From: Parasphaerochaeta coccoides DSM 17374
GTDB taxonomy: Bacteria > Spirochaetota > Spirochaetia > Sphaerochaetales > Sphaerochaetaceae
Direction: 5' to 3'
Assembly (NCBI RefSeq): GCF_000208385.1
Contig: NC_015436.1
Span: 248,001-312,000, forward strand
Length of the DNA: 64,000 nt
This document shows positions 20,371 to 22,602 of this stretch, piece by piece. The notes beneath the pieces are model-generated. The model was not told the origin of the DNA, ran no database searches, and was given only the letters and a program-made list of their open reading frames with translations. Within the stretch, counting starts at the first letter, position 1; the number at the start of each line of letters is the position of its first letter. The translations under genes were made by a program, and so were the position numbers.

Positions 20371-22602
20371 TCAAAGGATGACTTGTTCGGGCACTCTTTT
20401 ACTGTGTTCGGAGCCGCTGACACCCAGACCCAGTTGACCAAATACGTTGTGTCCAGTCCCCCAGAGCGTGCCGTCATTCTTCAGAATCATCGTGTGCCTC
20501 TCTCTGGCGGAGACAGCCACGACATCAGAACCCATGGACGAAACCGGCACGGGCGTGTTTCTGTTGCTATTATCACCGACCCCCAGTTGACCATACACGT
20601 TGTTTCCAGTCGCCCAGAGCGTGCCGTTCTTCTTTACAATCATCGTATGATACTTTCCGGCGGAGACAGCCGCGACATCAGAACCCATGGACGAAACCTG
20701 AACGGGCGTGTTTCTGTCGTTATAATCACCGACACCCAGTTTACCATCTATGCTGGATCCAGTCGCCCAGAGCGTGCCGTCCTTCTTCAGGATCATCGTG
20801 TGAGTGCCTCCGGCGGAGACAGCCGCGACATCAGTCATGAACCCGCTACCATCAGTAGTATCCTTGACCCGCACGGGCGTGTTTTTGTTGTTCACTGTAC
20901 CCGTAGTGCCGTCACCCAGTTGACCAAAATCGTTCCGTCCTGTTGCCCAGAGCGTGCCGTTATTCTTCAGGATCATTGTGTGATTGGTTCCGGCGTAGAC
21001 AGCCGCGACATCAGTCATGAACCCGCTACCATCACTAGTATCCTTGACCCGCACGGGCGTGCTTTTGTTGTTCACTGCACCCGAAGTGCCGTCACCCAGT
21101 TGACCATACTGGTTGTCTCCAGTCGCCCAGAGCGTGCCGTCCTTCTTCAGGATCATCGTGTGATAATCTCCGGCGGAGACAGCCGCGACATCAGTCATGA
21201 AGTCGTTATCAGCGGTACTAGCCTTGACCTGCACGGGAGTAGTTCTGGTGATTATAGTGCCATCACCCAGTTGACCATACTGGTTGTCTCCAGTCGCCCA
21301 GAGCGTCCCGTCTTTCTTCAGGATCATCGTGTGAGAGCCTCCGGCGGAGACTTCCTTGACACCAGTCATTTTCACGGAACCATCGGTGGAATCCCAGACC
21401 GGCACGGGCGTGCTTCTGTCATCCGTAGTGCCGTCACCCAGTTGACCAACATTGTTCCATCCAGTCGCCCAAAGCGTGTCGTCCGTCTTCAGGATCATCG
21501 TGTGATAATCTCCGACGGAGACGGCTCGGTATGGTTTGAACGTAGCAGCCGCGTTCACCCCGCTTCCGGTGTTCCAGTCCACTATCCCTATGAGAATCTC
21601 CGCGACGGCGACTTTATCCGCCGCCGTATTGAGCGTCATGTTGTAGACATGCGTCTTGCCGCTTTCCAAGACAATCCTGTACTCATCGGAGGACGCTACG
21701 CTGGAAGCAGCCCATTCATATGTCTCGCCACCCAAGGTGAAACGCAGACCAAGGGAGGACAGGGCGGTAGTGTTGTCCGTCGGTATCAACACGGCCTCAT
21801 ACCGCCGCTTGCCCGCAGTCCTCTCCGCTTCTGTGAGCGTGCCGGAGATGTCCTTCATGACGACATCAATGTCGCTGGGAACGACAGGAGCCACATCTCC
21901 GCTGTCCAGGTCGATTGTTGCCTGCGTGTTCATGCCCGTGACAGTGGCGACAAGCGTACCGCCCGTGATGGCATCCTTATCAACGGTGGTACTCGGAGAG
22001 ATGTTGACAACAAGGCGGGAGAGGGCATGACTGAGCGTCAGGCTGACCGTAGAGGTGTTGTTCTGGACACCAGCCTTCTTCCCCCACAGGAAGTCAGCTT
22101 TTCCGGTATCCTGTTCCCCGGAACCCGGATAGACATGTATGGGTAGAGCCGTGGTATCAGCGATGGATGATACATAGGGATAGTAGGCGATGAAGTCAAA
22201 GTGTGTGATGGCAGGGGTGGAGATGTCATCCCACTTCAAGGGGTTGGAGGCATCTGCCGCGGAGAAGGCGGAGAAGGTGATGTCCGCCGTATCTGCCACG
22301 TACTGCACATTGTCACGGTCGGTCGTGGCGACAGTAGCCACGTCCTCACCAGCCTCCACCATGTAGATGCCGACTTCATCCCCGATACTCCAGCCGGAGT
22401 CAGCGGTGGCTTTGCGTCCTATCTCGGAGATGAAGCGTATTGTGTTGGAGCTTGAAACGTTCGGTTTGTCAGCGCATGAAACAAAGGCAACAAGTAGCAT
22501 CAGAATGGTTGTAAGAACCAAAAAGACAGATCTGCTAGATTTGTTCATACGCAGGGCTCTCAGATTTTCGTCTCTCTCTCTCTCTCTCTCTCTCTCTCTC
22601 AT
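20371..22602 (-). CDS. Fimbrillin-like domain fused to seven RCC1 repeats, lipoprotein
   Basis: 743 residues from the ATG at 22602. N-terminal (RE)n tract from a (GA)15 repeat, then a signal peptide (about 19-44) ending FVSC. Residues about 50-345 resemble Mfa-like/fimbrillin proteins of Bacteroidetes ('WSIGDEVGIYM', 'FIAYYPY', 'DFLWGKK', 'LSHALSRLVVNI', 'SGKTHVYNMTL', 'IVDWNTGSG'). Residues about 355-743 are seven RCC1 repeats like those at 9253 and 10810. The start at 22602 has AAAGGA 9 nt upstream; the internal ATG at 22548 has no clear site. A change in the repeat number would shift the frame, so expression may vary between cells. Confidence 0.85.
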   Translation of the reverse strand: MRERERERERDENLRALRMNKSSRSVFLVLTTILMLLVAFVSCADKPNVSSSNTIRFISEIGRKATADSGWSIGDEVGIYMVEAGEDVATVATTDRDNVQYVADTADITFSAFSAADASNPLKWDDISTPAITHFDFIAYYPYVSSIADTTALPIHVYPGSGEQDTGKADFLWGKKAGVQNNTSTVSLTLSHALSRLVVNISPSTTVDKDAITGGTLVATVTGMNTQATIDLDSGDVAPVVPSDIDVVMKDISGTLTEAERTAGKRRYEAVLIPTDNTTALSSLGLRFTLGGETYEWAASSVASSDEYRIVLESGKTHVYNMTLNTAADKVAVAEILIGIVDWNTGSGVNAAATFKPYRAVSVGDYHTMILKTDDTLWATGWNNVGQLGDGTTDDRSTPVPVWDSTDGSVKMTGVKEVSAGGSHTMILKKDGTLWATGDNQYGQLGDGTIITRTTPVQVKASTADNDFMTDVAAVSAGDYHTMILKKDGTLWATGDNQYGQLGDGTSGAVNNKSTPVRVKDTSDGSGFMTDVAAVYAGTNHTMILKNNGTLWATGRNDFGQLGDGTTGTVNNKNTPVRVKDTTDGSGFMTDVAAVSAGGTHTMILKKDGTLWATGSSIDGKLGVGDYNDRNTPVQVSSMGSDVAAVSAGKYHTMIVKKNGTLWATGNNVYGQLGVGDNSNRNTPVPVSSMGSDVVAVSARERHTMILKNDGTLWGTGHNVFGQLGLGVSGSEHSKRVPEQVIL
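22571..22600. repeat. (TC)15 / (GA)15 microsatellite in a start region
   Basis: Fifteen uninterrupted dinucleotide units. On the minus strand they begin with the G of the ATG at 22602 and encode alternating Arg-Glu. Gain or loss of one or two units puts the downstream lipoprotein out of frame; three units restore it. Such tracts are typical of phase-variable surface genes (established in Neisseria, Haemophilus and Helicobacter). Confidence 0.95.

Follow-up and report, generated by a model that had tools for sequence, protein, structure and literature searches.

Start-codon GA tracts in a family of predicted surface lipoprotein genes of Parasphaerochaeta coccoides: candidate slipped-strand switches

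Could a run of GA dinucleotides that begins inside a start codon decide whether a predicted surface lipoprotein is made? The question is raised by one gene of Parasphaerochaeta coccoides DSM 17374, in a stretch of 64,000 nucleotides (the window; bases 248001-312000 of a genome that is a single contig of 2,227,296 bases, with dnaA at base 497). The minus strand carries a perfect (GA)15 at 22600-22571, which starts from the G of an ATG at 22602-22600, and the RBS-like GGAGAAAGGAAAAG precedes that ATG. The ORF (22602-20371, 743 aa) is in frame ('ON') in the assembly. The features of the locus, in window positions, are as follows.

20371..22602, minus strand: predicted surface lipoprotein, 743 aa (ORF, domain match, frame)
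22571..22600, minus strand: (GA)15 tract, translated as (RE)n (sequence)
22600..22602, minus strand: start codon ATG, coinciding with the start of five tract-less paralogs (ATGAGAGAGAA..) (paralog comparison)
22603..22624, minus strand: RBS-like purine stretch CACGGAGAAAGGAAAAGACACA (sequence)
22599..22640, minus strand: 13-codon upstream ORF MLSSSSRRKEKTQ, its TGA overlapping the ATG (ATGA) (sequence)
22546..22548, minus strand: ATG inside the ORF and in its frame (MNKSSR..), where translation might leak (sequence)
22474..22548, minus strand: signal peptide of the lipoprotein type, up to Cys43 (by eye)
21610..22410, minus strand: Mfa_like_1 (PF13149, fimbrillin-like), residues 65-331 (126.5 bits against a cut-off of 27, E 2.4e-36)
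20374..21531, minus strand: RCC1 beta-propeller with hypervariable blade positions (extent from model)
22704..22722, minus strand: operator-like box AATCATACCTTTGGGTAAT, ~100 bp upstream of the ATG (pattern search)
22737..22755, plus strand: second box copy, inverted, TATAATACTTTCGGGTTAT (pattern search)

An earlier note on this DNA had read the tract as a phase-variation switch, and its account of the locus holds: the repeat is real and uninterrupted, an RBS-like sequence is in place, translation would give an (RE)n leader ahead of the signal peptide, and an internal ATG lies at 22548. As in slipped-strand loci, the unit length is not divisible by three and the repeat stands at the start of the ORF. 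Removing one GA unit in silico leaves a 21-residue peptide and adding one leaves 14 residues, so that a one-unit change breaks the frame, as the note had said, and truncates the product. That product combines a lipoprotein-like signal, a fimbrillin-like domain and RCC1 repeats; the note's term 'adhesin-like' has the domain names as its only basis.

The window gene is one of 24. Across the genome, 24 GA tracts reach 6.5 units or more, every one preceded by T, and all 24 begin at the ATG of a paralog of the window gene. No tract of that length starting in the opposite phase was found genome-wide, and the 9 and 15 matches of reversed-pattern controls are consistent with being the opposite ends of these 24 tracts. 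A first-order composition model, drawn from the window and 20 sampled stretches, predicts, for the whole genome, about 0.08 GA tracts with a length of 13 bases and 8e-12 with a length of 30. Counted as uninterrupted runs (in L028 the repeat continues past one C), the tracts are 10-48 units long, with a median of 18. Behind each of them the ORF is open, over 695-981 residues, and the cysteine that corresponds to Cys43 is invariant in all 24 family members. PF13149 matches all 24 above its cut-off, the window gene included, which places them with the Mfa/FimA-type fimbrillin-like proteins; RCC1 (PF00415) matches 23 and PF09479 (Listeria-Bacteroides repeat) eight. The member without RCC1, L016, has a C-terminal part that by alignment is built of other repeats.

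Six genes are in frame (L013, L015, which is the window gene, L026, L027, L028 and L029) against eight by chance (n=24), a count that is soft because assembly tract lengths may be off by one unit. The other 18 are out of frame, nine in each wrong frame, and run into a stop after 10-33 codons. That they are out of frame yet open is expected if OFF genes stay under selection, without decay. Long dinucleotide runs are error-prone, but to regard the tract lengths as an artefact of assembly or sequencing is hardly credible, since this would leave unexplained both why 24 of 24 tracts stand at the ATG of one family and why they span 10-48 units.

Tract length varies between close paralogs. All four paralog pairs that are >93% identical on both flanks (150 bases upstream and 250 bases downstream of the tract) differ in unit number; the window gene and L018, for instance, have flanks that are 99.3% and 95.2% identical and tracts of 15 and 32 units. 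These unequal lengths, together with 24 ATG(GA)n paralogs, their open ORFs and the 18 that are out of frame, support the proposal of a phase-variable surface lipoprotein.

By far the best explanation of the observed tract positions, frames, open downstream ORFs, paralog differences and common upstream box, and one in which we have considerable confidence, is that each tract is the slipped-strand on/off switch of a contingency locus. Replication slippage in (GA)n would, in living cells, add or remove 2-bp units, and each such change would move the signal peptide and the remaining protein into or out of the frame of the ATG, such that a given cell would translate the surface lipoprotein or not, depending on the frame of its tract. 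The 24 genes would presumably switch independently, nearly every one with an RCC1 propeller of its own and behind a common operator-like upstream region, and a clone would show a shifting subset of the repertoire (here 6/24). The product also suits this reading: with a fimbrillin-like domain and a propeller, and predicted to be a lipoprotein, it is of the kind such switches usually target. Displayed at the surface, the proteins might act against phages, against host antibodies or in glycan binding. The genome encodes a MutL-type PF01119 protein, so slippage may be dampened by mismatch repair; on the same match we set aside the idea that the tracts grew because such repair had been lost.

Recombination acts too, as the two sides of the tract combine leader and signal types in several ways (A-I in 11 genes, B-II in six, A-II in four, C-II in two and C-I in one). 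This mixing would suit a model in which the tracts chiefly promote recombination between paralogs, shuffling cassettes, with the effect on frame a by-product. We consider that model unlikely: by eye, mixing is also seen within the coding part of the tract genes, and two-base units with a frame effect, 18 of 24 genes out of frame and open ORFs fit switching directly.

Paralogs that lack the tract suggest how it may have arisen. PF13149 matches 50 places in the genome, 49 of them above the cut-off, and 24 of these are the tract genes (matched by hand). Among the 25 tract-less genes, five read ATGAGAGAGAA(T/A) and a sixth reads ATGAGAGAGAGCC at the homologous start. The occurrence of these sequences at the same point indicates that the ATG is the start of the family and the tract an in-place expansion; on this comparison, the first codons of the family seem to have expanded into the GA tract. 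Another group of tract-less PF13149 genes reads GTGAGAAA at the homologous start. Just before it, L097, L099, L100 and L105 have unequal G and A runs (e.g., G8 in L100), possibly a homopolymer tuning of the RBS.

The ATG at 22548 raises the alternative that translation starts internally and that the tract is a tolerated, non-switching 5´ untranslated region. For half of the family this is possible. A plausible internal in-frame ATG (the MNKSS class) is found in 12 of the 24 genes, the window gene included, and there MNKSSRSVFLVLTTILMLLVAFVSC alone makes a good lipoprotein signal; in three of the five ATGAGAGAGAA paralogs, too, ATGs occur deeper in the hydrophobic stretch. In the remaining 12 genes, mostly with KLSVMVFLTILM after the tract, an internal start is unlikely and would give a signal without a charged n-region. 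Moreover, an ATG is absent from either homologous internal place in all five ATGAGAGAGAA paralogs, and an untranslated tract need not begin exactly at the ATG in 24 of 24 genes. As an account of the family, internal initiation is thus very improbable, and we retain the slippage switch. In MNKSS-class genes the internal ATG could nevertheless bypass it, and for the window gene, where such a start might leak, the phase-variable reading of the earlier note is tempered.

Other short frames bear on how complete the OFF state would be. In 17 of the 24 leaders, an upstream ORF with its own ATG 29-38 bases upstream has its stop over the start codon (ATGA), an overlap that might allow translational coupling. 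The peptide encoded there is mostly M.SSSS..RKEK... Five of the 18 OFF genes (L017, L021, L030, L033 and L034) have an ATG 52 bases upstream that shares the frame of the ORF, given which OFF may in effect be 'low'. A graded, three-state switch is a refinement compatible with on/off slippage: frame 0 would give full expression, another frame weak expression and the third none, with the weak product coming from the upstream ATG or from stop-and-restart at the internal ATG. The upstream ATG, the ATGA overlaps and, in the MNKSS class, a wrong frame that stops ~10 bases past the internal ATG are all consistent with this idea, but the upstream ATG lacks a clear RBS and is absent from the leader of the window gene, and we regard three states as plausible, if less likely than not.

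The upstream region is shared well beyond the start codon. With box positions assigned to genes by hand, each of the 24 has an operator-like box, AATMATACYTTYGGGTAAT, at 91-105 bp upstream of its ATG (at most one mismatch to the searched form), and 22 of them have an inverted second copy with at most two mismatches. The box has 72 matches genome-wide, 66 of them upstream of PF13149 genes, and a reversed control of the pattern had no match in the genome. With a looser pattern, eight tract-less genes out of the 25 show no box within 500 bases of the domain; L091 is one of them, and three more (2090686, 74335 and 44474) are Mfa genes that belong to the RCC1 type or are closely akin to it. Six of the 72 matches lie away from PF13149 genes. 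At L093 (genome 2171117-2171234), four box copies with 33-bp spacing stand upstream of one gene.

The genes also share a direction. In spaced stretches, GC skew is positive between 1 and 682 kb (seven of seven) and negative at 780 kb and beyond (13 of 13). It is noisier, with some values of opposite sign, in stretches centred on family genes. Genes for 16S rRNA are found at 245 kb (+), 772 kb (-) and 883 kb (-). Skew and 16S positions together put the origin close to 0 and the terminus at about 0.68-0.78 Mb, so that the replication arms are unequal. All seven tracts below 0.53 Mb are on the minus strand and all 17 above 1.09 Mb on the plus strand; that is, 24 of 24 tract genes are head-on to replication. 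As background, the spaced stretches other than the one at 780 kb contain 170 ORFs no shorter than 150 aa, of which 61 are head-on (67 of 176 if that stretch is counted), and since the family genes are paralogs, hence not independent, the head-on counts are given without a p-value. Head-on direction as a tract-specific trait was rejected, because all 14 tract-less genes found to have RCC1 are head-on too. Among the 11 other tract-less genes, eight are leading and three head-on, and five of the 11 are cut by a stretch end, such that RCC1 further along is possible.

In all, 37 genes that join Mfa_like_1 to RCC1 were found in the genome (23 with the tract and 14 without). The window gene carries PF00415 repeats and a modelled propeller fold: 342 of 732 residues in the structure model have pLDDT >=90, nearly all of them in the propeller, with an overall mean pLDDT of 64.8, a pTM of 0.57 and values below 50 in the fimbrillin-like part. 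UVR8 matches the propeller part with a TM-score of ~0.9 by target and 0.46 by query. The likeness to RCC1/UVR8 beta-propellers is one of repeats and fold; the solved matches are eukaryotic and have other roles, whereas the present propeller shares its polypeptide with a lipoprotein signal and a fimbrillin-like domain. W285 of UVR8 lies in the dimer face of that protein. By our reading, blade position 2 aligns with the residue altered in the W285A form of UVR8 (6xzm).

The blades differ from one another at a few positions. All 142 found by regular expression in 23 genes are distinct, and five positions have entropies of 2.9-3.8 bits against at most 1.63 bits at the other 22. Between close blade pairs (at most four differences in 63 framework bases; 1323 of 10,011 pairs), the encoded amino acid differs at 5864 of 6615 variable codons vs 1923 of 27,783 framework codons. 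Hypervariable blades as something special to switched genes were rejected, as tract-less paralogs and an RCC1 pair in the window are alike: in this comparison (135 units of 24 loci, some overlapping, so that a few were possibly counted twice), amino-acid difference is 0.87 and 0.90 at variable and 0.13 and 0.10 at framework positions, and pooled units of relatives give 0.90 at variable positions with a less constant framework at 0.36. The window pair, at 9163-10383 and 10777-11934 (+), consists of adjoining predicted RCC1-repeat lipoproteins on the leading strand, with the same hypervariable blade positions and no GA tract. In a diversity-generating retroelement, variable codons are A-only changes of AAY codons; mutagenesis of that type was set aside on codon patterns, since TAT, TAC, GGT and TCT are common and non-A bases vary.

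Tentatively, and with some doubt, we suggest a receptor-like repertoire of at least 37 predicted lipoprotein genes, whose propellers keep a near-constant framework while five residues in each blade are hypervariable and may share a single binding face. From it, 23 genes (and the one without RCC1) would be drawn randomly by GA slippage, giving each cell its own subset, mostly under one kind of operator and all head-on, which perhaps raises slippage and recombination.

This kind of switch is already known. The opa genes of Neisseria, about a dozen (CTCTT)n contingency loci, encode outer-membrane barrel proteins and have the pentamer in the signal peptide. Like them, the genes described here form a multi-locus surface-protein family with 5´ coding repeat switches and would be expressed in combinations. 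Unlike them, they number 24, have a GA dinucleotide from the ATG in place of CTCTT, and encode predicted lipoproteins with Mfa_like_1 domains and RCC1 propellers in place of barrels, and they fall outside the Opa family. The scale and the GA-at-ATG design appear to be new: the repeat unusually starts within the start codon and is translated. If our reading is true, 24 start-codon GA switches would, to our knowledge, be among the larger repeat-driven repertoires, and a population could display many different surface coats. The family permits tests of repertoire upkeep, of gene direction tuning slippage and of the ligands of hypervariable propellers.

The nearest mechanism is that of Helicobacter pylori oipA and other CT-repeat outer-membrane genes, in which, according to portions of PMC10564699, slipped-strand mispairing shifts the frame, the CT patterns named there having 5 to 11 CT. 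Both have a dinucleotide repeat at the 5´ coding end, but in those portions the CT lies in the signal-peptide region, vs 10-48 GA units on the coding strand before the signal peptide here, and the proteins are unrelated (PMC10564699). Surface structures phase-vary in Bacteroides as well, where, in an extract of PMC11868660, invertases flip DNA segments, unlike the repeat slippage at a start codon that we propose. Going by the titles and abstract openings of the papers listed, we found no published description of a GA-tract surface-protein family.

Relatives were searched for the same arrangement. ATG(GA)7.5 was found in none of 60 (36 of the same family), and their profile matches to the family, among the matches listed, cover the RCC1 part only, from model position 334 onwards. 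ATG(GA)9.5 occurs in seven of 394 genomes of the class, source genome included, and the source genome is the only one of the 394 with such a gene set. One genome (G093) has a single ATG(GA)10.5, L134, whose frame leads into a lipoprotein-like ORF that is 499 residues or longer; this ORF looks unrelated and is possibly an independent case of the same switch. In the five others, two of which have three tracts each, no ORF longer than 101 residues lies behind any tract, one running off the contig.

There appears to be a second frame switch within the P. coccoides genome itself. In another Mfa_like_1 lipoprotein subfamily, an octamer, (TCCCAGAG)n, lies behind ATGTGCAGAG, with one unit in L092 (1.571 Mb), 14 in L090 (1.848 Mb) and 21 in L091 (1.997 Mb) (all -; sequence). 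The ATG upstream of the octamer is in frame in L092 and L090 and out of frame in L091, and 8-bp units would shift the frame.

GA runs of another sort were also encountered. In genomes of four families, (GA)11.5-17.5 occurs with no long ORF behind it (L132, L133, L137, L138, L139, L141, L142 and L144), and TGCCAAG recurs within ~20 bases after each of these runs.
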